Assembly: GCF_000429525.1 (NCBI RefSeq)
Contig: NZ_AUCA01000023.1
Location: 1-56,932, forward strand
Direction of reading: 5' to 3'
From: Alicyclobacillus contaminans DSM 17975
GTDB taxonomy: Bacteria > Bacillota > Bacilli > Alicyclobacillales > Alicyclobacillaceae
Length of the DNA: 56,932 nt
A program made the translations under genes and the position numbers. The notes under the pieces were generated by a model. That model was not told the origin of the DNA, searched no databases, and saw only the letters and a program-made list of their open reading frames with translations. Positions 28,472 to 54,689 of the stretch are shown here, piece after piece. The first letter of the stretch is position 1; every line of letters starts with the position of its first letter.

Positions 28472-28905
28472 ACGCTCATGTGATAGACTTGGTTGCCGTT
28501 TCTCCAGACCATACATAATGAAATGCGGCAGAGACAGGTACCAGACAAAAATGCAAAATTCCGCGAAACAAAAAGGAGATTTGCGATTTGTGTCGTAATC
28601 TCTCAAATGAACGTCAGAAATGACGGGGCTTTTCATGGGTTTACAACCGCCATTTGGCGTGAGATCAGCGCACTGAAGGGAGGGATGCCGTCCTGCGGTC
28701 GGCACCTCGGAAGGCGCTTGGCGTGCCGTGACGGAAACGCGTCGGACGGAGCGCAAGCGTGGAAGTCGCAGGCATTGCGAAGATGGCTCCGAGAGGGTTG
28801 AACGCGGGGGCGTAGACGAGAAACAGAGAAAGGTGACTCGTCACCAATCCTTTTCAGTAAAGCATTCAAGTAGTTCATTTGGTTATTCAAGGAGGAGAAA
28901 CAGAC

Positions 28906-34875: not shown

Positions 34876-36681
34876 ATGAACAAGGAACGATTAAATCAAG
34901 TGAAAGCCGCGATTCTCACGCTTTCATCACTGGCTTTCTTGGCGGGGTGTGGGCTAAACGGCAAACAGGTGGCGACTTCACTGCCTCCGGAAGCTGTGGC
35001 GGTGCAGACGGTGCACCTGTCGAAACAGTCCATCGGCGATACATTTATTGGATCTATCACACCGTATATTCAGACCACTTTATCTCCCGGAGCCAGTGGA
35101 ACGCTGGCGGAGCTGGATGTGCGGGCCGGTTCAGTGGTCAAAGCGGGACAGGTGTTGGGGAGACTGAGTGATGTGACCGCAGTTCCGGCGCAAAACGCGG
35201 CAGATCAGGCGGCGGCGGCGCTGGCCAGCGCCGAAACCCAGTACCAGGATGCACTGGCCTTGTACAACGATAACATGAATGCGGAACAACAAGTGACCAA
35301 CGCTCAGAACGCGGTCGATGAGCAAAAGGCGGCCCTGCAAACGGCCCAGATAAATCTGCAAAAGGCTCAGCTTCAGGCGCAGGCTTCGTTGAATGGCGGC
35401 GGTACACCCCAGGATGAGCAGGCTTTACAGGCGGTGGTGACGGCAGATCAACAAGCGGTGACGTCGGCTACCAAGCAGCTTGAGCTGGCGCAAAGCAACT
35501 TACAGATCCTTCAGCAAACGCTCGATGATGCCAAGGCGCAGTACGGGTCCATCACGAGTGCGCAGGTACAGCAGGCGTATCAGGCTTATCAGGACGCACT
35601 GAACCACTACAATTCTTGGCAGAAGGGGGCATTTGCAGGAACCAACCCCTACAGCGCCGAGCTGACTTCCACGCAAACGGTGTATCAGGCCCTGAGCAAC
35701 GGTTATAACACGCTGCAGCAGGCGCAGCAGAGTTACAATCAGGGGCTTCAGGCGGTCAGCCAAGCCAGCTCTGCGCTCGCGAGCGCCCAGGCCAACCTGT
35801 CAACCGCCCAGAAGAACCTGGCGGACGCGAATCCCGACAGCAATACCAATCAGGCGCAACAGATCCAGCTTGGGGTGGCGGCGGCCCAGGCCTCGCTGAA
35901 GCAGGCGCAGGCTCAGTATAACGCGGCGGTAACGTCGCTCCAGTTGGCCAAACAAATCGCCAGCGACAAAACCCAAGCCAAGGCCAATCTGGACAGCGCC
36001 CTGAATGCGCTGCGCCAGGATCAGGTGAATGTACAGACTGCAAACCGCTCTTTGCAGGCACAGGTTCGAAATGACGAAGTGATTTCACCGATTTCTGGTT
36101 ACGTACAAGCGGTGGGGGCGCAGGTGGGGCAAAGCGTCGGGCCACAAACGAGTCTTGTCACCATTGCTTCCATGTCACCCGTGATGGCGACAGTGCAGGT
36201 GCCGGAGACGGACATCGGCAAGGTGCACAAGGGAAGTCAGATGAACGTGTTCGTGCCGACGACGGACCAGACATTGAACGGACACGTGCTCGACGTGCAT
36301 CCACAGTTGGATAGCACAACGAACCAGTACCCGGTGGACATTCAAATTGACAGCTCTGGCAACAATCTGCTCCCCGGCATGGCTGTGCAGGCCCAGATGC
36401 AGAGCCAGGCATCGAAGCCGGTCATTCTCGTCCCTGCAGACAGTGTCCTGAGCCTGCAAAGCGGAGCAAACGAAGTGTTTGTTGTGCGAAACGGACACGC
36501 GTACAGCAAGATGGTGCAGGTTGGGAATATGTCAAGCACTCAGTATGAAATCATATCCGGACTCGCCGTGGGCGATCAATTGGTGGTCCAGGGTCAGAAC
36601 CTGTTGTCTGATGGAGATGCGGTGAAAGTGGTGTCGACGGACGGTTCAGCAAGCAACGGCAGCACCAAAGCGGCGTCGTAG
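34876..36681 (+). CDS. Long coiled-coil membrane-fusion adaptor of the RND pump
   Basis: 601 residues. A lipoprotein signal (LSSLAFLAGCG, Cys 25) anchors it outside the membrane. Residues 60-100 and 400-430 are the two halves of the biotinyl-lipoyl-like domain, and beta-barrel and membrane-proximal domains follow to the end. Between the lipoyl halves is a coiled-coil hairpin of about 300 residues (105-400). At its centre (221-260) is the motif [20 protein letters not shown] then NPYS, shared with the two other adaptors in this window (45573, 52590). HlyD/AcrA-type adaptors normally have shorter hairpins and dock on TolC, absent from single-membrane bacteria. The RND pump gene follows 51 bases later. 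Confidence 0.88.
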   Translation: MNKERLNQVKAAILTLSSLAFLAGCGLNGKQVATSLPPEAVAVQTVHLSKQSIGDTFIGSITPYIQTTLSPGASGTLAELDVRAGSVVKAGQVLGRLSDVTAVPAQNAADQAAAALASAETQYQDALALYNDNMNAEQQVTNAQNAVDEQKAALQTAQINLQKAQLQAQASLNGGGTPQDEQALQAVVTADQQAVTSATKQLELAQSNLQILQQTLDDAKAQYGSITSAQVQQAYQAYQDALNHYNSWQKGAFAGTNPYSAELTSTQTVYQALSNGYNTLQQAQQSYNQGLQAVSQASSALASAQANLSTAQKNLADANPDSNTNQAQQIQLGVAAAQASLKQAQAQYNAAVTSLQLAKQIASDKTQAKANLDSALNALRQDQVNVQTANRSLQAQVRNDEVISPISGYVQAVGAQVGQSVGPQTSLVTIASMSPVMATVQVPETDIGKVHKGSQMNVFVPTTDQTLNGHVLDVHPQLDSTTNQYPVDIQIDSSGNNLLPGMAVQAQMQSQASKPVILVPADSVLSLQSGANEVFVVRNGHAYSKMVQVGNMSSTQYEIISGLAVGDQLVVQGQNLLSDGDAVKVVSTDGSASNGSTKAAS

Positions 36682-40238: not shown

Positions 40239-40396
40239 ACCGGAGAGCGGCTTTTCGCTGCTTGTCATTCATTCTTTCTTCAGCTCATGTCTCGCTCTGA
40301 CGCTCATGTGGGTAGGGGGGCCATTTTGACTCTTTACATGCTGAGGGGGCGAACAAGCAGACGGATGTCAACAGGTGGTTAAAAGGGGGAATTGTG

Positions 40397-43300
40397 ATGA
40401 ACAGTCTGAAATCAACATGGACCTCAATGGCAGGTGCTAGTTCGAGGAACGCTGCGGCCGGCGGAAATCAAGTGTCTCTAAAACGTGCACTCACAGGTAT
40501 TGCGGCAGCATCTGTTGTACTCGGTTTGTTCTCACCGGTGGCGTTCGCGGCTTCTTCAGGATTGACCAAAGCCAGTCAGCTGCCCATTGTGGTAAACGGC
40601 ACGGTATTATCCAATCCATTCGAAATGACGGGCAAAGATTCAGGGAACACCACCGCATTCTTTCCGGTCTACTACTTCAACCAAGCATTGAACAAACTTG
40701 GCTATCAAGCGACCTGGGATGGTGTAAATCGCATTTGGGCCATCACGGCGCCTGGTGTCACCCCGGCTTCGGTGGCCGGTGGCGTCGGAAACGGGAACAC
40801 CACTGTCACCGTCAATGGTACGGTTGTGAAAAAGTTCAACACCCAGGTTGCCAAGGATCCGGCTGCCGGACCGTCCGCACAACCAACCACCTACATGCCG
40901 GTGTACTACATCAACAACGTCCTGGAAGCCATTGGCGTACAAGGATCCTGGAGCGGCTCCAATGGGTTGAGTCTAACTGGCGGCCCAAGCACATCTACGG
41001 GTGTGGGTTCCATCAGTACAGTGACTTGTACGGGGCAAGCCCTCGGGACCGGATCGCAAATGCAACCGGCAACCTCTTTTGGGAAACCAATTACGGTTTC
41101 GGTGAAGTTGACAGATCCCGATGGGAATCCGCTGGTTGGTGTGAACGCTTTGTTGGATTTGGTCTATTATGGTGGCGCGCCCACCGTGACCGATGCAAAC
41201 GGCAATACGTTGTCCGCTCAACAGGTGAGTACAAGCGATGGGGAAGCATTCCAGTACAAGGTTCCTACGAACCAGGATGGGGTGGCGAGTGCCAACGTTT
41301 CTGTTGGAACGAATATATCTGCTGGTTATTTGGTACGATTTGAAAGCCCTTACAATCTAGCTGGTTCAACGGCAACCTTGAAATCTGACAAGGCCTACAT
41401 AGGATTCGTCGCGCCGAACCACCTGGGCATTTCACCGTTCGCGACAGCAGCGAGTCCGTTTCAAGCCAGTGTTTCCGGTGCAAGCAGTGGCACTGCAGGA
41501 CTCGTACCTGTTATCGTGGTCATCCCACCGAACAGTACAACCGAACAAGCGGGCGTACCCGTTACATTCTCACTGTCTAACAATACAGCATCCGCTTTCT
41601 TCTCCACCATGACTGGGGGGTCAATTGGAACGAGTCCACAAACGGTCTACACCGATGAAAATGGTGTAGCAACGGTTTTGGTCAATGCCAGTTCCATCGG
41701 TCTCGTCGAGGTTACAGCCAGCGCGACCAACTATAGCGACGTTCACACGCTGATCAGTTGGTCACAACCCGGTATTGTGAACAAGTTGGACAACAAGACG
41801 GCGAGCGGTTATCAAACTTCTCCGTCCGACAATGTTTACAATGCCAACCTGGGCGACAATGTGACATTCCAGGCAACGGCTGAGGACGAAAACGGCAACC
41901 CGGTAGCCAATGCGCAACTGTTGATTGCAAACAGTGAAGTGGATGGCGACGTGAATCACCCGCTCAACTCTGCGCACGGTGGGTATGTGGACAGTAACGG
42001 GAATACGACGAACTTCCCGAATGTCAGCGTGCTGAACCTGTCAGGTAGCACCAACCCGTCCACGCTGGGTGAAGTCGTGACGACGGATGCTTCCGGTAAC
42101 TTCAACTTCACCGTGAACGACGACAAACTCAAAAACGACGGATACTACGTATACAGCATTCAGGGTGGTGTAGTTTCGAATCTGCTGTGGGAAACGCAGG
42201 TGAACTGGCAGACTAGTACAAATTTGAACTATATTGGTATTGCGGGTGCTGGCGGTGAAATTAAATACGACAGCAATGCCATCACGGGTCTGACCGGCCA
42301 GGCGGCTTTGGGCAACTACCAAATGAACTCAATCGTTGTACGTTTCGCTGGATTCGTTGGCGATGACGCGCCACTGGGCGCCGGATTGAATCAGACTTAC
42401 ACCCTTTCCACCACGGGTGAGGCGGATGCAGCCATCTGGGGTGTCCATGTGGACAGCAAGGCGAGCGACGTTGCTGACAGCAACTACGTGGCTGACCTGG
42501 ATGGTGGCTATTGGTATCAATTGAATCCGGGACAACGCGGTGTGGGCAGCATCACGCTGCGCGTGGTACAAGATGCGACGAATTCGAATCAGTACGACGT
42601 TTACATCAACGGAATCCTGATTGGGTCCAACACGGAAACTGATTGGAACGACAGAAGTAACGGCGCGGATGGAGAGTACCCGGGTACCGTGAAGTTGGCC
42701 ATGGCTGATGACGATTCCGGCAGCGCAACGCTCACGGTATCCTCATCCGGCAAGACGGCGACCGCACAGATTAACTTCAATGGCGGTCAACCGTTTGAAA
42801 CCGAAGGGGTTACTCCGCAAATTGTGCTGACGAACGGTCAGTCTCAAGACCTGTCGTTGACGCTGGAAGATGACAACGGCAACCCGATTGCGAACACGCT
42901 TGGCGCCATCCAGTTCGCGGATTCCCCGAATCTGTGGGTAACCAAGATTAATACGGTTCCGTTGACGATGAATCAGTCTGGTGGTAGCCTCGGCACCGGT
43001 TCTGCGCCAGAACCGACTCCGATTCCGCTGTGGAATACTGCTGGAACTGAACAGCCGCTTACGAACGGCAAGCTGGGTTACAACAGCGTTAACGTCGCAG
43101 GCGTTGGTTCCTGGGCGCCGAGCGGTGGAAATACAACCACGGTCTACGCGTACTCTGATTCGAACGGTAAGATTACGCTCACCCTGCAAGATGGTGCAGT
43201 CTCCTACTGGAGCAATGATACGATTGCCGGCGGTGGTAGCGTTGTCTCTGCACCGAATGCAACGGGGAGCGTAGTCACTGAAAAGCTGTGGTCGCCAGTC

Positions 43301-43705
43301 GGCAACGAGACCAACATCGAAGCGGATTCGAGTGCACCGAAGGCGCAACTGGTTATCAGTCAAGCGAACCCAGGTTCCGGTGCTGCTGTATGGACTCAGG
43401 TGGGGGTCATCTCGTTCATCGGTGCGAACAACGGCGGTACTACAACGGGTCAAAGCAACTGGATTAGCAGTGCATCCGCGAAGTTTGACGGTCTGCTGGA
43501 GACAGCCATTCAAGCGACGGTTGATCCGGCGGTCACGAGCGTGCTGGTGGTGGATCAAACCAACGGCAAGGAGCTCGGACCCCTTTCAGCGAGCAACGGT
43601 AGCGTGAGTGGTAATCTGCTCGGTGCAACCAAGGGCGATGTGCTGGTCCTGACCCCGTACGAAGGGACCACGGCTGGTACAGCGTTGAGCATTACTGTTC
43701 AATAA
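40397..43705 (+). CDS. S-layer-like surface protein 2
   Basis: 1102 residues from the ATG at 40397 (GTG 40394 is also in frame); AAAGGGGGA lies just upstream. The signal peptide is long: about 30 polar residues precede KRALTGIAAASVVLGLFSPVAFA, the part matching paralogue 1. The domain order is the same: two copper-amine-oxidase-N-like repeats, then Ig-like domains. The C-terminus has 85 more residues (NNGGTTTGQSNWISS ... GTALSITVQ). The N-terminal third has diverged from paralogue 1, but long DNA stretches in the middle and C-terminal thirds are nearly identical, suggesting gene conversion. No SLH domains. Confidence 0.82.
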   Translation: MNSLKSTWTSMAGASSRNAAAGGNQVSLKRALTGIAAASVVLGLFSPVAFAASSGLTKASQLPIVVNGTVLSNPFEMTGKDSGNTTAFFPVYYFNQALNKLGYQATWDGVNRIWAITAPGVTPASVAGGVGNGNTTVTVNGTVVKKFNTQVAKDPAAGPSAQPTTYMPVYYINNVLEAIGVQGSWSGSNGLSLTGGPSTSTGVGSISTVTCTGQALGTGSQMQPATSFGKPITVSVKLTDPDGNPLVGVNALLDLVYYGGAPTVTDANGNTLSAQQVSTSDGEAFQYKVPTNQDGVASANVSVGTNISAGYLVRFESPYNLAGSTATLKSDKAYIGFVAPNHLGISPFATAASPFQASVSGASSGTAGLVPVIVVIPPNSTTEQAGVPVTFSLSNNTASAFFSTMTGGSIGTSPQTVYTDENGVATVLVNASSIGLVEVTASATNYSDVHTLISWSQPGIVNKLDNKTASGYQTSPSDNVYNANLGDNVTFQATAEDENGNPVANAQLLIANSEVDGDVNHPLNSAHGGYVDSNGNTTNFPNVSVLNLSGSTNPSTLGEVVTTDASGNFNFTVNDDKLKNDGYYVYSIQGGVVSNLLWETQVNWQTSTNLNYIGIAGAGGEIKYDSNAITGLTGQAALGNYQMNSIVVRFAGFVGDDAPLGAGLNQTYTLSTTGEADAAIWGVHVDSKASDVADSNYVADLDGGYWYQLNPGQRGVGSITLRVVQDATNSNQYDVYINGILIGSNTETDWNDRSNGADGEYPGTVKLAMADDDSGSATLTVSSSGKTATAQINFNGGQPFETEGVTPQIVLTNGQSQDLSLTLEDDNGNPIANTLGAIQFADSPNLWVTKINTVPLTMNQSGGSLGTGSAPEPTPIPLWNTAGTEQPLTNGKLGYNSVNVAGVGSWAPSGGNTTTVYAYSDSNGKITLTLQDGAVSYWSNDTIAGGGSVVSAPNATGSVVTEKLWSPVGNETNIEADSSAPKAQLVISQANPGSGAAVWTQVGVISFIGANNGGTTTGQSNWISSASAKFDGLLETAIQATVDPAVTSVLVVDQTNGKELGPLSASNGSVSGNLLGATKGDVLVLTPYEGTTAGTALSITVQ

Positions 43706-43726
43706 CGTCTGTGATCAGTGAGGGCG

Positions 43727-43750
43727 GGGAGAGAGCAAAGGCTCTCTCCC
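43727..43750 (+). terminator. Hairpin after S-layer-like gene 2
   Basis: GGGAGAGAGC and GCTCTCTCCC form a perfect 10-base stem with loop AAAG, 21 bases after the stop. No T-run follows. A second hairpin, GGCGTCTGCGG / CCGCAGGCGCC (43865-43902), is followed by CTCCTTGTT. Confidence 0.6.
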
Positions 43751-43902
43751 ATACCCTTCAATGGAGCAAAGGGGCCGCTCGGAAATTCGTTTCAGCTAGC
43801 CAGGATACAGCCGATGAGGTTCCTGTGACCCTGTCGTAACCATAGCGTGCATGCAATGGGTTGAGGCGTCTGCGGTCAATGACGCGATAGGCCGCAGGCG
43901 CC

Positions 43903-44183
43903 CTCCTTGTTGGTGCCGTTTAATTCACTGGAATCAACGTTCAATCAGCCCCTGTGTCGCTACCACTCCTCATCCTCTCCAGTCAAAACTTGAAGCCGTT
44001 TCGTGAGAACGAAAGTGTGATCCCCCGATAATCCACATACCCCTGTTGCGGGCGTACGACCCGCGGGCTTTTCCGCACCGAGGCCACACACTCCACGGCA
44101 TCTTACCTTGACCCTTGTCAGACACCTACGTTGCACGGGCAAATTAAATTGATTGATAAATGTTTTTTCTGCGAATCATTTTG
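43903..44183. other. Intergenic region, possible IS605-type 3' remnant
   Basis: No intact gene. On the minus strand 44142-43950 is continuously open and contains TTTCGT-TCTC-ACGAAA and GGCTTCAAGTTTTGAC, a pattern recalled from the 3' (guide-RNA) region of TnpB-carrying IS605/IS1341 elements. A GCGGG / CCCGC stem lies near 44052-44073. No TnpB zinc-finger motif is present, so this is a tentative remnant. Confidence 0.3.
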
Positions 44184-44192
44184 TGCTATAAT
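44184..44192 (+). promoter_or_regulatory. Extended -10 promoter of the marR operon
   Basis: TGCTATAAT at 44184-44192 is a perfect extended -10. There is no good -35 at 17 bases (TTTTCT). It lies 119 bases before the chosen MarR start, and AT-rich flanks could hold the MarR operator. Confidence 0.6.
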
Positions 44193-44310
44193 TTCCGCCG
44201 TGGCCTTTAATTTCGCATGATAGGTTATGGGCTCTCAAACTTACTACAAAAACGGTCAAACAGACCTACGTGCGCCATTGCGCACCTCAGAGGCAGAGGG
44301 GAGTGATGCA

Positions 44311-44766
44311 GTGCTTGACTCGCGTCTCCGGATTGAGTTGTTGATGTCGTATCGCCGCTTGCAGCTGCAATTCAAGGCGACCGCGAGAGCATTCGCGGCA
44401 CGAGTCGGTTTAACCGAGTTTCATCTTTTCGTGTTGTCCGCATTGGTAGAACACCAAGAGATTAGTTTACGTCAACTTGCGGAACTCATTGCCACCTCGG
44501 AAAGTCAAGCCAGCGTGACGGTGGATGAGCTGGTGGAACGGGGATGCATACATCGTGTGCGCGCAAAAGAGGATCGCCGACGCTTGGTTCTCCGGCTGAG
44601 TGAAACCGGGGAGGGCCTGTTGCGCGATGTATTCGGAGAGAACTCGCCCTTTCAACGGATGATGACGCGTGTCATGGACATATCCGAAGAAGAGGCGAAA
44701 TTCCTGATTCATCTCAATCAACGAATTTTGGTGAATTTACAACGAGAGGGAGTGGGCCATTCGTGA
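44311..44766 (+). CDS. MarR-family regulator of the EmrAB-type system
   Basis: 151 residues from a GTG at 44311, with GAGGGGAG 7 bases upstream. The open frame reaches 44227 but that part is polar and lacks a ribosome binding site. The winged helix is typical of MarR (LTEFHLFVLSALVEHQEISLRQLA, ATSESQASVTVDELVERGCI, EDRRRLVLRLSETG). MarR proteins repress efflux operons and are released by drug-like ligands. It overlaps the next gene by 4 bases (GTGA). Confidence 0.85.
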   Translation: MLDSRLRIELLMSYRRLQLQFKATARAFAARVGLTEFHLFVLSALVEHQEISLRQLAELIATSESQASVTVDELVERGCIHRVRAKEDRRRLVLRLSETGEGLLRDVFGENSPFQRMMTRVMDISEEEAKFLIHLNQRILVNLQREGVGHS

Positions 44767-45419
44767 GTGCGAAAGGGCGGAAGATCATCTTGACCATTGT
44801 CGCCGTCGTGGTTGTCGTCGGCGCGTTGGTCGGCGCTTGGATCTACCATCAATCCCAACTGTATTTATCCACGGATGATGCGTATATAGACGGGCGTGAG
44901 ATTGTCGTATCCGCCTCCGCGTCAGGACAATTAGAAAATTGGTCTGGGCACGAGGGAGCTACGTTTCAGCAGGGCAGTACGGTAGGACAGATTGAAGCGC
45001 GCACGGGTGATGCGACATCAACGGTTCCCATTCCTATTCCGGCCAATGCGACCATCGTGCAAAATGACGCGGTGGATGGTGAGTTCGTCTCTGTGGGAAC
45101 GCCGCTGGCGTACGCATACAACATGAACGACCTGTGGGTCACCGCCAACGTCAAGGAAAAACTGATACATACTTTCGCGGTGGGAGCCCCTGTCGATATT
45201 ACGGTGGACGCTTATCCGGGCGTGGTGCTGCACGGGAAGGTTGTACGCATCGGCCTTGCGACTGCCAACACGTTTTCACTGTTGCCGACGGAAAGTACCA
45301 ACGCGAACTTTACCAAGGTTCAGCAGGTTGTGCCTGTGAAGATTGAGATGGACGGTTATCAGGGAATCGGTTTGGAACCGGGGCTCAGCGTGGAAGTTCG
45401 CATTCATAAACAACACTGA
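44763..45419 (+). CDS. Short EmrA/HlyD-like protein without a coiled-coil hairpin
   Basis: 218 residues. A membrane anchor (IILTIVAVVVVVGALVGAWIY, residues 8-28) is followed by the EmrA signature STDDAYIDGREIVVSASASGQL. The lipoyl halves are joined directly, without the hairpin that normally lies between them. The beta-barrel part (NDLWVTANVKEKLIHTFAVG, VDITVDAYPGVVLHGKVVRI) is intact. EmrA proteins normally have about 350-400 residues. The next gene encodes a separate adaptor with a very long hairpin, so this system may use two adaptor types. Confidence 0.8.
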   Translation: MSAKGRKIILTIVAVVVVVGALVGAWIYHQSQLYLSTDDAYIDGREIVVSASASGQLENWSGHEGATFQQGSTVGQIEARTGDATSTVPIPIPANATIVQNDAVDGEFVSVGTPLAYAYNMNDLWVTANVKEKLIHTFAVGAPVDITVDAYPGVVLHGKVVRIGLATANTFSLLPTESTNANFTKVQQVVPVKIEMDGYQGIGLEPGLSVEVRIHKQH

Positions 45420-45572
45420 AACGTGTCAGTTGCCGAAACCCATGGAGTCTATGACACCCGTAATTTGGCGGGTGCTTGGAAGCATGCGGGAGCAGCGGCT
45501 GCATGTTATACATCTCAATTTGAATGTCAGGCATAATTTTTAAGTTACAACCAAGGCAGAGGGGGATTTTCC

Positions 45573-47522
45573 ATGGCGGAGGTTGGAGTGCAAACGGAGG
45601 CGGGCCTTGCCCTGAAATCTTCACGCCGTAAACGATGGGTGGCTGGTGGCATCGCTGTCATTGTGGTACTGGGAGTTGCCGCCGCGGTCGCACTCAAGGC
45701 GACGAATGCGGGCGCAGCGGAGATTCCAGCTACGGATGTGTACAAAGTGACTACCGGCACGCAGGTGACCAGCATTTCAACAACTGGAACGGTGGCATCC
45801 AGTTCAGAGTCCAATCTTGCATTTCAAAATGTCGGAGGCATGATAAAGACCCTCAACGTCGATGTCGGTACACATGTGAAGGCGGGCCAGGTCCTGGCCA
45901 CGTTGGACGACTCCAGTATTCAGGCACAGATAGAGTCTGCCCAGGCCAACGTTGCGGTTCAACAGGGCAATCTGCTGCAGGCGCAGGCCAAGCTGTCTCT
46001 AGCCAAAGAGGGACCGACAGCGCAGACCGTTCAGGTGGCGCAGGCGGGCGTGAAGGCGGCGCAGACCGCTTTGGCGAATGCGCAGAAGGCGTATAAGGAT
46101 GCCCTGGCTAACTACAACGACCGTACGGCTCAGCAGCAGCAATTGGTTGCCGCACAGAATGCGGTGAATCAGGCCAAGGCAGCGCTGGACACGGCGCAGC
46201 AGAACCAGCAGGCGGCGATTCAGGCTGCGCAGAACAACTTGACTGCGGCTCAAACCAAACTGGCGACAGATCAGCAGAACTTGCAGACAGATCAGGCTCA
46301 GTATGGAAACATCACACTGGAACAGGTGCAAAAGGAATATCAAGCCTATGAAGATGCGTTGTCTCACTACCAGGCTTGGCAAAATGGAGCTTTTGGGGGG
46401 GCAAACCCCTATCAACAGTCGCTGCAGGTGGCGCAACAAGTCTATCAAAGCGACAGCCAGGGCTACTACAAGCTGCAGGGAGATGAGACTGCGGTGAAGG
46501 CGGATGAGGCCGCAGTAACCCAGGCGCAGCAGGCTCTGACACAAGCGCAATCCAGCGTGTCAACCGTGCAATCGCAGTATGATGCCGCTGTAAAGGCGCT
46601 GCAAGCCGCACAGCAGGCGTACGACGACAGGACCCAGCAGCAGACTGCCGTTGACCAAGCGGCGAACGCGGTCAAACAAGCACAAGCGCAGGTCCAAAGC
46701 GCTCAGGCGCAATTGCAGCAGGTGCAGCATCCGCAGGATCCAGGTAACATACAGGCGGCGCAGGCCGGCGTGACCACCGCACAAGCCGGTGTCCAGACCG
46801 CTCAGGCACAGGTGAAGCAATTGCAGGTGCAGGATGGATACACGGTGCTGCGTGCTCCGGAAGATGGGGTAATTACAGCGAAAAACGTTGCCGTAGGCGA
46901 TGTGGTTCAACCGGGGCAGGCAGTGTTCACCATGAATGTGAACAAGCGCCAGGTGTATGTGGCGGTGTCCGAAGCGCAGCTGCAGTCCGTCTCGGTGGGG
47001 GATCCGATAACGATGACCATCTCCGCCTTGCCTGGCCAGACTTTTACGGGCAAAGTGTTGGAGATTGATCCCACGCCCATCGACGGTTCTGCGGGTATCA
47101 CGGAGTATCGTGTGAAGGCAGCGCTGGACAACGCGCAACCGGATGTGGTGAAGCCGGGCATGAGCGGAAATGTCGTGATTCATACGAATTTGAAGCATGC
47201 TGGCGTTATGATTCCAGCGATGTCGCTTCAGAATGTGGATGGGTATTATGGTGTTTATGAGCTTCGCCAGAACGGAACGAAATCCATTGACAGTGGCGCT
47301 GCTGCGGCGGCAGCTGGGGTTCCCCCTGTACCGCAGAGTGAACTGGACAAGATAGATCAGAATATGCCGAAGGGCGTGTACTTCCAGCCGGTACAAGTTG
47401 GCTATCAGGGCAACACGCAGGTTCAGATTACGGCTGGATTACGTGAGGGCGACAAGATTTTGCTGGGAGCGAGCCGGTTTACAGTGGAACCCGACGGCAC
47501 CGTATTGTCAAACGATGACTGA
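45573..47522 (+). CDS. Long coiled-coil membrane-fusion adaptor of the MFS system
   Basis: 649 residues with one N-terminal membrane anchor (VAGGIAVIVVLGVAAAVAL, 23-41). Lipoyl halves lie at about 85-112 and 422-455; beta-barrel domains follow. The coiled-coil hairpin spans about 115-420 with its centre near 268. The tip motif [20 protein letters not shown] then NPYQ is at 241-281. A YNDRT motif on the rising arm (181-185) is mirrored by YDDRT on the falling arm (350-354), and Pro-containing breaks at about 148 and 388 are also symmetric. It lies between emrA-like and emrB-like genes. Confidence 0.88.
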   Translation: MAEVGVQTEAGLALKSSRRKRWVAGGIAVIVVLGVAAAVALKATNAGAAEIPATDVYKVTTGTQVTSISTTGTVASSSESNLAFQNVGGMIKTLNVDVGTHVKAGQVLATLDDSSIQAQIESAQANVAVQQGNLLQAQAKLSLAKEGPTAQTVQVAQAGVKAAQTALANAQKAYKDALANYNDRTAQQQQLVAAQNAVNQAKAALDTAQQNQQAAIQAAQNNLTAAQTKLATDQQNLQTDQAQYGNITLEQVQKEYQAYEDALSHYQAWQNGAFGGANPYQQSLQVAQQVYQSDSQGYYKLQGDETAVKADEAAVTQAQQALTQAQSSVSTVQSQYDAAVKALQAAQQAYDDRTQQQTAVDQAANAVKQAQAQVQSAQAQLQQVQHPQDPGNIQAAQAGVTTAQAGVQTAQAQVKQLQVQDGYTVLRAPEDGVITAKNVAVGDVVQPGQAVFTMNVNKRQVYVAVSEAQLQSVSVGDPITMTISALPGQTFTGKVLEIDPTPIDGSAGITEYRVKAALDNAQPDVVKPGMSGNVVIHTNLKHAGVMIPAMSLQNVDGYYGVYELRQNGTKSIDSGAAAAAAGVPPVPQSELDKIDQNMPKGVYFQPVQVGYQGNTQVQITAGLREGDKILLGASRFTVEPDGTVLSNDD

Positions 47523-47547
47523 TGCATCCTCAGGCAATCGGGGAAGC

Positions 47548-47590
47548 GCAACGGTTGCCTGGGGAGCGAAATTCCCCAGGCAACCGTTGC
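47548..47590 (+). repeat. 18-base perfect inverted repeat inside the efflux operon
   Basis: GCAACGGTTGCCTGGGGA (47548-47565) is perfectly repeated inverted at 47573-47590, with a 7-base loop GCGAAAT. It lies between the adaptor and MFS genes and has no T-run. It could terminate part of the transcript or stabilise the upstream mRNA so that adaptor is made in excess. Confidence 0.85.
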
Positions 47591-47717
47591 CCTGACGAGC
47601 CTTGGCCAGTACCGGACCGATGTATTCTGCACATTCTGCACCGCATGGCCGGATGGCGGTCCCTATGCTCCTGGCTGCGTGTTTCTCAGAAACTATGCGT
47701 CTGAAGGGGGGAATTCC

Positions 47718-49319
47718 ATGTCTGCTTCCGCCGTATCGGCAAATCAAGACAGCGGCTCTATGCATCGTGGAGTCATCGTCACGGTCATGGTGTTGGGTGC
47801 CTTCGTCGCCTTGCTCAACCAAACTCTGTTGAACGTGGCGATTCCACATCTGATGAATGCGTTTGGGGTTGATGCGGACACAGTACAGTGGCTGTCCACC
47901 GCATACATGCTGACGAACGGGATTGTCGTACCACTCTCTGCGTTTCTGATTGCGACGTTAACCACACGCACACTGTTCATGGGGTCAGTGCTGATATTTG
48001 TGGTGGGAACGTTGGTATGTGGTGCTGCTCCCAGCTTCTCAGTGATACTTGCGGGGCGTGTGATTCAGGCTATCGGTGCTGGGTTGATGATGCCCCTGAT
48101 GATGACGGTCATTATGAGCATTTATCCACCGGAGACGCGCGGAAAGATGATGGGGGTCATTGGAATTGCGATGTTTTTCGCCCCTGCTCTGGGGCCGACA
48201 TTGTCCGGGTGGATGATTGAAAACTGGTCATGGCGATTGCTTTTCTATGTGACCATCCCCATCGGCCTTTTGGATTTCGCGCTGGCGTTTGTGTTCCTCA
48301 AAAATGTGGGTGAACCCCGTCGAATGAAGTTTGATATTGTCGGCTTCGTGACATCCACTATTGGCTTTGGCACGCTGCTATATGGCTTCAGCGAAGCCGG
48401 AAGCAAGCAATTGCACGACCCTCAAGTCGTCATACCGGTCATCTGCGGGATTATCTTTCTCGTATTCTTTGTCGTTCAGGAGCTTACCTATGATGCACCT
48501 ATGTTGAATCTGCGGGTCTTCTCGGTATCTCAGTTTTCACTCGCGACCATCGTGAGTTCAATTTTAAATATGGCGATTTTTGGAGGGGCGCTTTTGGTGC
48601 CCATCTACATTCAAAACATCCGTGGATATTCAGCATTGGAATCCGGGTTACTGATGTTGCCGGGTGCTCTCATTATGGCGGCCATGTCACCGATTTCCGG
48701 AATCCTGTTGGACAGATATGGAGTGAGACCGCTTGCCGTCATCGGCCTGTCGATTACGGCGGTCACAACCTGGTTGTATACAGGACTTAGCATGGACACC
48801 ACCTATGGACACGTGATGCTGCTGTATACGCTTCGGATGTTCGGTATGTCGTTCGTTGCGATGACCATCATGACGTCTGGTCTGAATGCTTTACCCCGGA
48901 ACCTGGCGAGTCATGGTACCGCAGTTTCAAACACTGTACGCATGGTGGCTTCTTCACTGGGAACGGCCATACTGGTTACCATCATGTCCACGCAGTCCAC
49001 AACCCACTTTGATGCGTATGCCGATATGATGAACGTCAGCAATGCTTCGCTCCACAATGGATTCATGGAGGTTGCGCAAAGTATGGCGTATCAGCTGAAG
49101 GTTCCGCTGAGTACGGGGATTGGCGTTGCGCGCGAAATATGGGCACAGTTGGTGCAAAGCAATGGGACCGTTGAGGGAATTGATGACGCTTTTAGGGTGG
49201 CAGCGGGCTTAGCGGTATTCGCGCTGCTTCTCTCGTTCTTCCTCACGAGACCAAAGCAACAGCCAGTGGCTCAGAAGGCCAGAGTGCAGGGGGCTGCATC
49301 TCCTAAAGAGACATCGTAA
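47718..49319 (+). CDS. EmrB/QacA-type MFS efflux transporter (DHA2, 14 segments)
   Basis: 533 residues from the ATG at 47718, preceded by GAAGGGGGGAA. DHA2 features: LNQTLLNVAIPHLMNAF in TM1, TVQWLSTAYMLTNGIVVPLSAFL, motif C-like FFAPALGPTLSGWMIENWSWR, and fourteen membrane segments. EmrB-type pumps export hydrophobic drugs or uncouplers with an EmrA adaptor. It is the last gene of the marR-emrA-adaptor-emrB unit. Confidence 0.92.
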   Translation: MSASAVSANQDSGSMHRGVIVTVMVLGAFVALLNQTLLNVAIPHLMNAFGVDADTVQWLSTAYMLTNGIVVPLSAFLIATLTTRTLFMGSVLIFVVGTLVCGAAPSFSVILAGRVIQAIGAGLMMPLMMTVIMSIYPPETRGKMMGVIGIAMFFAPALGPTLSGWMIENWSWRLLFYVTIPIGLLDFALAFVFLKNVGEPRRMKFDIVGFVTSTIGFGTLLYGFSEAGSKQLHDPQVVIPVICGIIFLVFFVVQELTYDAPMLNLRVFSVSQFSLATIVSSILNMAIFGGALLVPIYIQNIRGYSALESGLLMLPGALIMAAMSPISGILLDRYGVRPLAVIGLSITAVTTWLYTGLSMDTTYGHVMLLYTLRMFGMSFVAMTIMTSGLNALPRNLASHGTAVSNTVRMVASSLGTAILVTIMSTQSTTHFDAYADMMNVSNASLHNGFMEVAQSMAYQLKVPLSTGIGVAREIWAQLVQSNGTVEGIDDAFRVAAGLAVFALLLSFFLTRPKQQPVAQKARVQGAASPKETS

Positions 49320-49491
49320 AATCTAGGCAACGATATTGCAGCCGAGTTGGTTCTGAAGTCTGATGAATCGAGCGAGAAAGGGAATGTAAGGAATAGAAAC
49401 CGTCTTTGGGTTTGTTGTGAAAGTATTTACTTCGGGCTGTGGCTTCATGTTTGCGAATGCCTTAGAAACAGCAAGGTGCCTCGAACCATTA
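49320..49491. other. Short intergenic region after emrB-like gene
   Basis: No gene is seen. The transcript of the MFS operon probably ends at the hairpin 49516-49546. Confidence 0.5.
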
Positions 49492-49507
49492 GGGGGGGGG
49501 GGGGGGG
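49492..49507 (+). repeat. Homopolymer of sixteen G
   Basis: Bases 49492-49507 are G16, just before a terminator between two convergent genes. Such tracts vary in length by slippage; here it is non-coding. The exact length may also be a sequencing artefact. Confidence 0.8.
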
Positions 49508-49515
49508 CAGAATGT

Positions 49516-49546
49516 CGATAAAGAGGTGCGTGGCACCTCTTTATCG
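49516..49546. terminator. Bidirectional terminator between MFS gene and secreted repeat protein
   Basis: CGATAAAGAGGTGC and GCACCTCTTTATCG form a perfect 14-base stem with loop GTG. It lies between convergent genes and suits both; plus-strand tail GCGTGTTCTTGG is only moderately T-rich. Confidence 0.8.
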
Positions 49547-49591
49547 CGTGTTCTTGGTTCTTGAGCTTGTTCGGCCCATAACGTGTTCCAG

Positions 49592-50398
49592 TCAGCTGTT
49601 GCTGATTGCGTCGCTTGAGCTGGCACTACTACTGTTGCCGACAGTAGTTCCGCTTTGTTGAGGACGCCCTTTTCCACCCTGGAACGTTCCTGTGTGCTCC
49701 AGCATCTGTTTGGCTTTGGACGCAAAATTACTCAATATTTTCTGCTCTGCTGTGGAGGTAAGCTTGCCGCTTTGCACCGCTTGGTCTAACTTGCTTTGCA
49801 AATCTGCTTGCAAGTCGGAAATCAGCGTGTCCTCTGAAATTCCTTTGCTCTCAGCGATTTGTGCGATGGATTGTCCAGCTTGCAAATCCGCCTTCAACGT
49901 GGCTTGGTCAATATTGAGAATTGATGTGAGTTCGCTAAGCGCATTGAACGCCATCCGCTGCCCCGAATTCTTGGCAGCAACCCCGCCCTTTTGTTCGACG
50001 AACTTCTTTTCCTGCGCGTCAAAGTTGCTTAAGATTTTTTGCTCCTGTGCTGACGTAAGTTTACCGCTTTGTACCGCTTGATCCAGTTTGCTTTGCAAAT
50101 CTGCCTTCAAGTCGGAAATCAGCGTGTCCTCTGAAATCCCTTTGCTCTCAGCAATTTGCGCGATGGACTCGCCTGCTTGGATGTCTGACTTCAACGTCGC
50201 CTGGTCAATACCGAGAATGCTCAGCAGCGATGAAATCCCTGCACCCGTTTGTCCCTTGAAGGCATGATGCGCCTTGGCGACGCTCGTTGACGTCGATGTA
50301 CCCGAGTTCGCAGTGGACGCAGCAAATGCCGACGCGGGCACCAGGATGGTCGCGGTCAAACCTGCAGCTCCAATCAGCAATTTTGTTCTTGCGTTCAT
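49592..50398 (-). CDS. Secreted protein with two tandem 75-residue repeats
   Basis: 268 residues. A signal peptide (KLLIGAAGLTATILVPASAFA) is followed by two near-identical repeats (about 55-125 and 157-227). Each has SILGIDQATLKSDIQAG, SIAQIAESKGISEDTLISDL, then LDQAVQSGKLTSAQEQKIL. The helical repeat resembles small exported proteins annotated only as hypothetical. The tail is Ser/Gly-rich. The ATG at 50398 has GAGGGAGGA upstream. The repeats are also close at DNA level, pointing to recent duplication. Function is unknown. Confidence 0.7.
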   Translation of the reverse strand: MNARTKLLIGAAGLTATILVPASAFAASTANSGTSTSTSVAKAHHAFKGQTGAGISSLLSILGIDQATLKSDIQAGESIAQIAESKGISEDTLISDLKADLQSKLDQAVQSGKLTSAQEQKILSNFDAQEKKFVEQKGGVAAKNSGQRMAFNALSELTSILNIDQATLKADLQAGQSIAQIAESKGISEDTLISDLQADLQSKLDQAVQSGKLTSTAEQKILSNFASKAKQMLEHTGTFQGGKGRPQQSGTTVGNSSSASSSDAISNS

Positions 50399-51616: not shown

Positions 51617-51697
51617 CTTTGAGTCATTCCAGCGGGACAGGTATAATAGCAACCAGTCAAGATGAACCACAATTGGTTACAGGTAGGTGGATGTAAG

Positions 51698-52300
51698 ATG
51701 AAGCGAGGCACAAAGGCACTCTTGGCACTTGTGATGGCAGGTTCGGCGACCCTCTTTGTCGGCTGCGGGACCTCGACCGATACCAATAGCACCTCCAATA
51801 CGGCAAATGCAAATAACGCTACGTCCAATTCGACGACAACGAAACCATCCAGTTCTTCCACTGGGAAGGTGATGGTGATTGGTGGACAACAGTACGAGGG
51901 TTCTGCGAATCTGAAGAAATACGAATCGAAAGCGGCTGCCAATCCCAATAACGCCGAGGCGCAGATAGATGCTGGCCGCAGTGCCCATGTCAACGGGGAT
52001 GATAAGGCGGCCATCAGCTACTACGAAAAGGCGATTAAGATTGATCCTAAAAATGCACAGGCGTATAACAACATCGGAAACATCTACTTCCGAGACATGA
52101 ATCAACCGCGTTCAGCGGTGCCTTATTATCAAAAAGCCACCCAGGCGGACCCAACTTACGTATACGGATGGTGGAATCTCGCATTGGCGGAGAAAGCGTT
52201 GGGAAATAACACAGCCGCGCAGGAAGCCGTGAAGGAAGGATTGCAGAAGGTTCCGAAGTCAGATCCGAATTACAAAAACCTGGAAAACGCACTCAAGTGA
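51698..52300 (+). CDS. TPR-repeat lipoprotein
   Basis: 200 residues from the ATG at 51698. A lipoprotein signal (ALLALVMAGSATLFVGCG) is followed by a 45-residue Ser/Thr/Asn linker and three tetratricopeptide repeats (EAQIDAGRSAHVNGDDKAAI, YYEKAIKIDPKNAQAYNNIG, YYQKATQADPTYVYGWWNLA). Such proteins act as surface scaffolds for protein complexes. It stands between the IS3 remnant and the ABC-type export system, with its own terminator. A role in that system is only positional. Confidence 0.82.
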   Translation: MKRGTKALLALVMAGSATLFVGCGTSTDTNSTSNTANANNATSNSTTTKPSSSSTGKVMVIGGQQYEGSANLKKYESKAAANPNNAEAQIDAGRSAHVNGDDKAAISYYEKAIKIDPKNAQAYNNIGNIYFRDMNQPRSAVPYYQKATQADPTYVYGWWNLALAEKALGNNTAAQEAVKEGLQKVPKSDPNYKNLENALK

Positions 52301-52589: not shown

Positions 52590-54689
52590 ATGGTGGGGAC
52601 CAGTGTAGGGCAAGAAAGTGAATTTATCCAGCCGATGTTTAAGAAATCCCGGCGAAAGTGGATCTACTCCGGTATCGCGGTGGTGGTTGTGCTCGGTGCT
52701 GGGATTCCTGCACTGGCGCATACGCTCGGTGGTTCCACGCCAATTCCGGCCAATGACATCTACCAGGTTCGGTACGGGAATGTTATGCAGACGGTGAGTG
52801 CTTCGGGAACCATTCAGGTACCGACTGAAATCGATTTGAATTTCTCCGGATCTGGTTCTTCGGGCAGCGTAAAGAGCGTCGGTGTAAAGATTGGGCAGAA
52901 GGTGAAGGCTGGGCAGGTGTTGGCCCAGTTGGATGACTCAACCGCGCAGACGCAGGTTGCGACCGCAAACGCCCAGGTTGCGCAGGCCAAGGCCAATTTG
53001 GCTTCTGCACAGGCAAAACTTGCTCAGGATGAAGAAGGTCCCACCAAGTCGGCGATTGCGATTCAACAGGCAAACGTGGAGAAGGCTCAGGCTACTTTGA
53101 GTGCGGCGAATCAACAGTATCAGCTTCAGCTTCAGCAGTACAATGACCGAACCAGTGATGAGCAGGCGCTGGTGAACGCGCAAAATGCGCTTGCGAAAGA
53201 CGAGCAGACAGCCAACGATACGTCCTCCGTGTCGTCTGCGCAAGCCCAGGTGGACTCTGCCCAGGCAGCCTTGGCTGAGGCGGAGCAAACGCTGCAGCAG
53301 GACCAAGCGCAATACGGAAACATCACCGAAGAACAGGTTCAACAGGCATATCAAGCATATCAAGATGCTCAGGCCCGATATTACGGTTGGGCCAATGGTG
53401 CTAATACAGGATCGAATCCCTACAGCACACAGTTGCAAAACGCCGAGAACCAGTACAACACCTTAAACTCTGAATACCAAGACCTGCAGCAGGCCCAACA
53501 GGCGGTGAACAATGCCAAAACCACACTGGCCCAAGCGCAGGCGGACCTGAAGACTGCGCAGACCCAGGTGGCCCAGGCGCAACAGCAGATACAGGCGGAC
53601 GAACTCGCGGTTCAACAAGCGGAAGACGAGTACAATAACCGCACCACAGCCAAGCAGAACCTCGAAAATGCGCAGAGCCAGGTGCAGCAGGCGCAGGCGG
53701 ATCTCGACAGCGCCAAAGCGAGCCTGCAACAGGCGGAACAGCCGGCGGATTCAGCAACCATCAAGCAGGATGAGGCGTCGATTGCCGGTGCCCAGGCCGG
53801 ATTGCAATCGGCAGAGGCCAATCTTGAGTCGGCGCAGCTCCAGGTGCAAAACACCATGCTGAAGGCGCCCATTGACGGGGTGGTGACACAGGTGAACATC
53901 AAACCGGGAGAGCTGCCTAGCAACTCCACACCAGCGATTGTGATTGACGATTCGGTTGCCACAGATCTGCAGGTGAACATACAGGTCAGCGAATCGCAGA
54001 TGGGTTCCATCAAGCCGGGGCAGGCTGTCGACTATACCGTATCTACATATCCAGGTGAGACGTTCCATGGGACCATCACTGAGATCTACCCAACACCGCA
54101 GGTGGTGTCCAACGTCACGGAATACACGGTGATGGCCACCATTGACAACTCATCTGGCAAGCTGAAGCCGGGAATGACCACGAATGTCACGATACACACG
54201 GCGGAAAAGGATCACGTCTTGACCGTCCCCGCCATCGCTCTGCAAACACGGGGAAGCATTGAAGGGGTCTACGTCTATGACACCTCTGGCACCTCTTCGC
54301 AGAGTGGTAACAGTGTGTCCGTCGGATCTTCCGTCCGGACCGGAGGATTCGGGGCAACCAGTAATGGAACCGGAGCAGGTACAGGGGCCAAGACCGGGTT
54401 TGGAACAGGGGGCGGCACCCGAGGCGGCGCGGCGAACGGCATTTCATTTGGCACCAATGCCAAGCTCCCCAAAGGTGTTCGATTCCAACCGGTTGAGGTG
54501 GGTCTGTTTGGGACCAACACCGTGGAAATCACCGCTGGATTGAGCCCTGGCGAGGAGATTTTGCTTCAATTGCCGGGTAACTCAGCCTCCACGAACACCC
54601 CCAGCAGCAGCGGCGGAATTCGCATGGGCATGGGCGGATTTGGCGGCGGTGGCGGTCGGGCCTTTGGCGGCGGAGGAGGCCGTGGATAA
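52590..54689 (+). CDS. Long coiled-coil membrane-fusion adaptor of the ABC system (MacA-like)
   Basis: 699 residues. Membrane anchor at 24-43. Lipoyl halves lie at about 90-115 and 422-450, and beta-barrel and membrane-proximal domains follow. The hairpin (about 118-420) has the tip motif [20 protein letters not shown] then NPYS (239-279), mirrored YNDRT (184-188) and YNNRT (348-352), and symmetric Pro breaks (about 150 and 385). A Gly/Thr/Ser-rich insertion (570-615) and a C-terminal tail of Gly, Phe and Arg ([16 protein letters not shown]) are unusual. Its stop overlaps the ATPase start (TAATG). MacA-type proteins work with MacB. Confidence 0.9.

Follow-up and report, generated by a model that had tools for sequence, protein, structure and literature searches.

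In the tripartite pump EmrAB-TolC of Escherichia coli (8ZAR/8ZAL), TolC, EmrA and EmrB are present at 3:6:1, and residues L302/L303 of the EmrA beta-CL loop make up a ring that has the EmrB bundle trapped above it; mutation of L302/L303 abolishes EmrAB-mediated resistance (PMC13139468). In TriABC-OpmH of Pseudomonas aeruginosa a single pump requires two distinct adaptors (PMC4338810), and DSY0927 of Desulfitobacterium hafniense is a coiled-coil-less adaptor of the major facilitator superfamily (MFS) type fused to an adaptor of the resistance-nodulation-division (RND) type (PMC4338810, PMC4446572). The hairpins of Gram-positive adaptors have been called puzzling or hard to rationalise, there being no outer-membrane channel to reach (PMC4338810, PMC4446572). 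Here we describe a locus of Alicyclobacillus contaminans DSM 17975, a bacterium with a single membrane, in which two unlike adaptors stand beside one MFS pump. The stretch analysed, called the window below, is positions 1-56,932 of contig NZ_AUCA01000023.1 (56,932 nucleotides), and four consecutive genes in the same direction (+) encode a MarR-family regulator, a short adaptor (EmrAs), a long adaptor (HlyL) and the pump. We consider it probable that the last three form a two-adaptor MFS efflux module, in which EmrAs docks the pump and HlyL supplies the tube.

Compared with EmrAB-TolC, the window has a pump of the same TIGR00711 family and an EmrA-like EmrAs with a beta-CL loop; EmrAs, however, is hairpinless, the second adaptor is of another family, and TolC was not found in the window's genome. 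The pairing logic is the same as in DSY0927, but DSY0927 is one fused protein with an ATP-binding cassette (ABC) pump, whereas in the window the two adaptors are encoded separately, the pump is of the MFS kind and the giant hairpin is MacA-related. DSY0927 was reportedly studied in Zgurskaya et al. 2009. TriABC-OpmH differs in having an RND pump, adaptors that are 36% identical and an outer-membrane channel. The nearest kin of HlyL are MacA-like ABC-linked adaptors, as in MacAB-TolC and YknXYZ, yet HlyL has no adjoining ABC pump and carries an insert of 314 residues. The principle of two different adaptors was already known, and the window appears to be a variant of it; the argument for heteromeric rings, drawn in reviews from TriABC and DSY0927, here gains many Bacillota cases. 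What is new is the stability of the giant pair and, more than that, a hairpin-tip module shared between pump classes. Neither the MFS two-adaptor module nor the tip module was described in the literature searched, most subscription papers lying outside its reach.

EmrAs (44763-45419, +; 218 amino acids) has a transmembrane (TM) helix, a lipoyl domain, a beta-barrel and a beta-CL loop at about residues 170-188, and no membrane-proximal domain (MPD). An earlier interpretation, the sequence-only reading, had described it as an EmrA-like protein that joins its lipoyl halves directly, and the open reading frame and the AlphaFold model (mean predicted local distance difference test, pLDDT, 85.7) bear this out. 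Strands 84-91 and 96-101 are linked by a four-residue turn (92-95), a single N-terminal helix covers residues 3-33, no hairpin helix lies between the lipoyl halves, and the modelled chain ends after the barrel strands. The EmrAs family profile aligned to E. coli EmrA as two pieces, skipping EmrA 97-184 on the hairpin side. Against the EmrA/EmrK family TIGR00998 EmrAs scored 109.5 bits, below the curated cut-off of 390.8, as expected because the hairpin is missing. It was closest to EmrA both by sequence (8ZAR, profile E 8e-40) and by fold (Foldseek rank 1). Its second fold neighbour (E 2e-10) was BesA of Borrelia (4KKS/4KKT/4KKU), where the hairpin is likewise absent; BesA, however, is part of an RND system that includes an outer-membrane factor of its own (PMC4446572, PMC4338810). 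The beta-CL loop is kept in the family profile, in which fsllP...nftKv aligned with SAFSLLPAQNATGNWIKVVQ of E. coli EmrA, and the EmrAs loop aligns to the ring-1 residues L302/L303.

EmrAs matches were found in 72 of 101 relatives (profile search, E 1e-8) and in at least 136 of 398 phylum genomes (E 1e-15, ordinary hairpinned EmrA counted too). In three comparisons the dN/dS of EmrAs was 0.084, 0.027 and 0.033, and the gene is under purifying selection. The idea that the short protein is a truncated relic lacking conserved orthologues, which the sequence-only reading had named as the finding that would speak against it, is ruled out by the phylum-wide relatives and the low dN/dS.

HlyL (45573-47522, +; 649 amino acids) was classed as a giant-hairpin adaptor of the MacA/RND type from TIGR01730, its model and a tree. 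The hairpin of about 300 residues that had been proposed for it was recovered in two ways: the lipoyl-to-lipoyl insert measures 314 residues by motif positions, and the model has a hairpin of about 310 residues, with helices between 114 and 422 and breaks at 147-149, 183-184, 245-248, 272-280, 352-353 and 386-392. The tip loop of this segmented hairpin is placed at 272-280 (mean pLDDT 77.1, predicted TM-score 0.36; the pose of the arms is overall not reliable). Beyond the hairpin the model has a beta-rich, MPD-like C-terminal region, and the position of the beta-CL loop, as read from the sequence, is a short turn only. HlyL scored 138.2 bits against RND_mfp TIGR01730, above the cut-off of 94.9, and 33.9 bits against MacA NF008606, far below the cut-off of 342. 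No MacB-type ABC pump adjoins HlyL, the next gene being the MFS pump. The dN/dS of HlyL was 0.073, two further comparisons being saturated.

An adaptor tree was built with the hairpin columns removed (50 of the 68 listed adaptors, the 18 without a match to one lipoyl motif being left out; L126_9540, labelled ABC by the script, was counted as EmrAs-linked by hand). The 11 giant EmrAs-linked adaptors formed one clade (Shimodaira-Hasegawa-like approximate likelihood ratio test, SH-aLRT, 99), nested in a 23-row clade with MacA-like ABC-linked adaptors (SH-aLRT 98). Five RND-linked giant adaptors formed a separate clade (SH-aLRT 100), and the EmrAs-linked adaptors of other families were set apart from the HlyL group by a branch with support 94. 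This grouping, from a quick tree with SH-aLRT only, supports the earlier suggestion that one of the two adaptors was recruited from another system.

The pump gene (47718-49319, +) encodes a DHA2/EmrB-type MFS protein of 533 amino acids from the ATG at 47718. The protein scored 443.8 bits against TIGR00711 (cut-off 230.2), and its residues 16-509 align with EmrB of 8ZAR. Judged from sequence alone, the region between TM11 and TM12, where EmrB has a periplasmic helix bundle, aligns with EmrB and is longer than in EmrB. The dN/dS of the pump was 0.076 and 0.080.

A search for the same pair beside emrB in relatives, as the sequence-only reading had advised, found it in 13 of 41 genomes of the Alicyclobacillaceae, spanning 7 of 16 family genera. 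EmrAs and a giant adaptor lie on one contig in genomes G000, G013, G014, G020, G022, G028, G029, G032, G035, G036 and G040; in G002 and G009, counted among the 13, EmrAs is present and the contig ends inside HlyL. The distribution is patchy, the pair not being seen in 28 of the 41 family genomes, including G001 of the same genus. Named records with the pair, which overlap in part with the assemblies of the 13 genomes, are Alicyclobacillus macrosporangiidus, A. montanus, A. fastidiosus, A. fructus, A. mali and four metagenome-assembled genomes; in A. tolerans and Alicyclobacillaceae bacterium I2511 the pair is truncated by a contig end. Four gene orders were observed, EmrAs-HlyL-MFS, EmrAs-HlyL-MarR-MFS, EmrAs-MFS-HlyL and MFS-EmrAs-HlyL, the last with HlyL cut by a contig end.

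In an EmrAs tree of 109 rows, 14 giant-paired rows and locus L036 formed one clade (SH-aLRT 100), nested among dyads of EmrAs and an MFS pump. This tree leaves out 2 fused rows, rows longer than 240 amino acids were trimmed to their last 225, and the labels of L034-L039 were set by hand (a contig end cuts HlyL in L037, L038 and L039 and leaves it out of sight in L036). In a careful tree of 27 rows, 11 of 11 giant-paired EmrAs grouped together with support of 100/100 and in every one of the 200 bootstrap trees (100%). Within Alicyclobacillaceae the two adaptors are inherited together, each forming one clade. The giant-paired MFS pumps fell in two distant clades of an 85-row quick tree, and 0 bootstrap trees united them in the careful 27-row tree. 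A single clade of these pumps was rejected (p-AU 6.65e-48) in an approximately unbiased (AU) test on 27 rows, 11 vs 16, with the group set by gene neighbourhood, though the quick MFS tree had already been inspected. Because the adaptor pair is monophyletic while the pumps lie in two distant clades, the pump appears to have been swapped and the pair to have stayed. In the simplest history, a hairpinless EmrA acquired its MacA-type partner on a single occasion, and a later exchange of the pump left the pair intact.

Two-adaptor arrangements also occur elsewhere in Bacillota. Among 38 unfused phylum loci, 22 had a hairpinned adaptor within 2.6 kb of EmrAs on the same strand, a count that is not an unbiased prevalence, as the 40 loci were hand-picked, best scores first and near duplicates skipped. 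The statement that known EmrAB systems use one adaptor does not hold as a rule in these loci. An MFS pump was present in 19 of the 22 and ABC-type genes in 2 (L172, L183); L159 is a weak case, its hairpinned adaptor being followed by its own ABC/FtsX genes. Hairpinned adaptors numbered 23 inside the 2.6-kb same-strand zone and 4 outside it, the zone making up 223302 of 970910 strand-bases. The EmrAs-linked adaptors outside Alicyclobacillaceae come from another part of the adaptor tree, and the lipoyl insert of these adaptors measures 80-225 residues at 21 loci and 297 at the remaining one of the 22, L159, against 314 in HlyL. In two of the 40 loci (L180, L181), a fusion of 515-517 amino acids joins a hairpinless EmrA half to a hairpinned half beside two ABC-type genes, and looks like the DSY0927 type. 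Another two-adaptor design was seen at L076, L077, L078, L084, L086 and L089, where two different hairpinless EmrAs stand in tandem, in five of the six loci with a single same-strand MFS pump next to them.

A division of labour is suggested by the complementary parts, by the history that the two adaptors share, and by pairings and fusions that recur. EmrAs would be the pump-facing half of EmrA, with membrane anchor, lipoyl/beta-barrel ring and EmrB-holding loop. HlyL, in this model a recruit from a MacA-type ABC system, would bring the hairpin tube that EmrAs lacks; its arms of about 150 residues would rise some 20 nm over the lipoyl ring if straight, with the conserved tip at the end. At an alpha-helix rise of 1.5 A per residue, straight arms of 142-158 residues would measure about 21-24 nm. 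EmrAs and HlyL would most likely assemble around one MFS monomer, and the substrate would pass from the pump through the ring into the HlyL tube. Mixed EmrAs/HlyL rings, which the sequence-only reading had raised, are plausible and agree both with the way the two anatomies complement each other and with the fusions found in nature. The pair survives four gene orders and a pump exchange, which favours one machine. Physical co-assembly of EmrAs and HlyL, the ring stoichiometry, the conduit function, the crossing of the wall and the export of toxic compounds are what we infer for this machine. The apparent split of the jobs of EmrA over two proteins would also be a natural test of the pump-engaging versus the substrate-carrying half of an adaptor.

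A 58-residue segment midway along the hairpin is common to three adaptors of the window, whose genes lie next to those of RND, MFS and ABC pumps. In HlyL this tip module covers residues 245-302 (46305-46478, +; NPY at 278-280), as defined by alignments and a tip profile. It recurs in the RND-linked giant adaptor (34876-36681, +; insert measurement and tip profile) and in the MacA-like ABC-linked giant adaptor (52590-54689, +), a paralogue of HlyL with 41% identity over HlyL residues 14-578. Ten columns, NPY included, were invariant among 10 rows, and in a 30-row alignment 13 of 58 tip columns were at least 80% conserved, vs 23 of 237 columns in the helices of the arms. The tip profile had 50 matches in 27 of 101 relatives, in open frames of 374-899 residues; all these relatives belong to families f1 (23 of 41 genomes) and f2 (4), and the fetched matches were adaptors. 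In the phylum sample, the profile matched the own genome and, weakly (E 2.3e-5), 1 of 397 others. This sole match outside the order is a 745-amino-acid open frame at L280 (G420).

Hairpin lengths were measured as well, inserts being not measurable in 9 of 52 adaptors, and 37 of the 43 measured carried NPY or NPF. The EmrAs-linked giant inserts (n = 13) were 314, 328, 342 or 412 residues long, differing by multiples of 14, and in 13 of 13 the NPY lay 9.0 residues beyond the insert midpoint. RND-linked giant inserts (n = 7) measured 304-349 residues with NPY at +7 to +7.5 from the midpoint, and ABC-linked ones 258-420 residues. MFS/ABC insert lengths within the same genome were 314/309, 314/290, 342/315, 342/315 and 412/406, which suggests a common distance in these five related genomes, a small set. 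The tip module common to the MFS-, ABC- and RND-linked giant adaptors of the order, which stays midway along hairpins of varying length, is the newest element. The hairpins of the window have a conserved end common to three pump classes of one genome, and heptad-step lengths around a fixed tip. A wider proposal, tentative and in our judgement rather doubtful, is that the MFS, ABC and RND pumps of this TolC-less single-membrane order may use giant hairpins as wall-crossing tubes with one tip module. The tip would dock on a putative receptor on the outer side of the wall, the hairpin would gauge wall thickness like a ruler, with each arm growing in whole heptads, and an MFS pump would join only via a pump-fitting EmrA half paired with a tube half. 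With a conserved 58-residue tip, the question of what a Gram-positive hairpin touches becomes a pull-down problem.

Several observations weigh against this picture of docking adaptor and tube. The docking loop of EmrAs lies in a low-confidence stretch of the model (168-183, pLDDT mostly <50), so its shape is not reliably predicted, and at the loop site the giant-paired EmrAs have LL or LI in some cases and MV, VV or EI in others. In the 109-row EmrAs tree, 43 rows are dyads of EmrAs and MFS pump without a second adaptor, so EmrAs is evidently able to serve alone. At L041 the nearest MFS gene is about 3.5 kb upstream of EmrAs-HlyL, with other genes between. The model of HlyL has an MPD-like region, and MPDs have been linked to transporters whose periplasmic domains are large rather than to MFS pumps (PMC4446572). 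In the HlyL fold search the best E-value belongs to EmrA (4tko), followed by MacA, at TM-scores of just 0.17-0.25 on the query, and the search does not discriminate between the EmrA and MacA kinds. Both the adaptor tree and the EmrAs tree of 109 rows were inferred quickly, with SH-aLRT as the sole branch support. As to the tip, its mean conservation in the 30-row alignment (0.52) did not exceed that of the arms (0.47-0.54), and NPY was missing in 7 of the 30 rows, 3 of these being without a recognisable tip.

The best-placed alternative, which we hold to be unlikely, is that there are two separate complexes sharing only MarR, an EmrAs ring on the MFS pump and HlyL as a spare adaptor for the ABC pump 5 kb downstream or for another. 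It accords with the common EmrAs-MFS dyads, the paralogy of HlyL with the ABC-linked adaptor and the MPD-like region of HlyL. The ABC system, however, already has its own adaptor in the window, and the EmrAs-HlyL pair moves together across the pump swap and the changes of gene order. The pair also occurs at L040 and L053 with no ABC gene found in the fetched stretch, and the fusions of other Bacillota join both adaptor kinds covalently.

HlyL could also serve the same pump without being a tube, its hairpin acting as a substrate chaperone or wall anchor while EmrAs alone makes the ring. A folding role has been suggested for the very large hairpins of Gram-positive adaptors without an outer-membrane partner (PMC4446572), and the own genome has no credible TolC; the 14-residue length steps around a midpoint-fixed tip, however, resemble a spacer with an end contact, not a free chaperone, and we rate this explanation as distinctly improbable. 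Accidental adjacency, or an EmrAs in decay, is scarcely credible, even though the contigs of G002 and G009 break inside HlyL and intact neighbours are not visible there, because 13 of 41 family genomes have the pair, the dN/dS of EmrAs is 0.027-0.084 and its relatives are found phylum-wide.

TolC and Omp85 were searched in the window's genome only. The sole match to PF02321 there scored 22.6 bits against a cut-off of 22; this candidate, the coiled coil of the 52590-54689 adaptor, was 0.6 bits over the cut-off and was rejected. No Omp85 match (PF01103) was found in the own genome, nor an S-layer homology domain (PF00395), and because the latter is absent we do not call the neighbouring proteins of 995 and 1103 amino acids S-layer proteins. 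These two large, secreted-looking proteins (28879-31866 and 40394-43705) flank the RND operon and are 77% identical over about 1000 residues. The 1103-residue one (40394-43705), the one scanned against families, had no Pfam or NCBIfam match; in the own genome it gave 11 matches including itself, of which 9 were partial and within its first 270 residues. Relatives of the two proteins were seen near giant adaptors at L126, L133 and L134.

A tetratricopeptide repeat (TPR) lipoprotein (51662-52300) was the commonest non-pump family near giant adaptors, occurring in the window and in 7 of 28 fetched loci. The seven loci are L034, L035, L041, L049, L131, L132 and L143. In 25 of 61 relatives the lipoprotein was present, not always together with giant adaptors. 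We did not adopt it as the tip receptor, given this patchy co-occurrence and a lipobox, identified by eye, that would place the protein at the membrane; it is a possible accessory component of giant-adaptor pumps.

Within the module, the MarR gene (44227-44766, +; Pfam MarR_2, 38 bits) overlaps the EmrAs gene by 4 bp. Of 11 intact giant-pair loci, 8 include a MarR gene in the module (the window, L034, L035, L040, L041, L049, L053 and L125), and none was found in the module at the other 3 (L069, L126, L127). The gap between HlyL and the pump gene holds a strong inverted repeat (47548-47590, +) with a 19-pair stem (18 Watson-Crick pairs and one G-U) and a 5-base loop. The RNA fold of 47523-47672 had a z of -4.33, and 0 of 200 shuffles were equally stable. 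The stem-loop also came up as a self-complementary match; it has no T-run, is absent from the terminator-like sites predicted in 43700-49600, and may be a regulator site or an RNA element. In that same interval, predicted promoters were no more than in shuffles (3 vs a mean of 3.9), and predicted terminators were about as in shuffles (5 vs a mean of 4.9).

Hairpinless EmrAs without a recognised pump gene nearby were seen at L042, L043, L044, L079-L081, L083 and L088; the gene adjoining EmrAs at L079 we take to be that of a ribosomal protein L19-like protein. At L063 and L068, EmrAs lies directly 3' of an MFS gene distant from EmrB (116 and 109 bits, local MFS profile). YhbI-YhbJ-YhcA of B. subtilis is presumably an operon of MarR, a short EmrA and an MFS pump. 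In the window, RND, MFS and ABC pumps with giant adaptors are gathered inside 22 kb (34876-56616), and at least two of these three kinds of giant-adaptor pump also stand together at L034, L041, L049, L069, L132 and L143.

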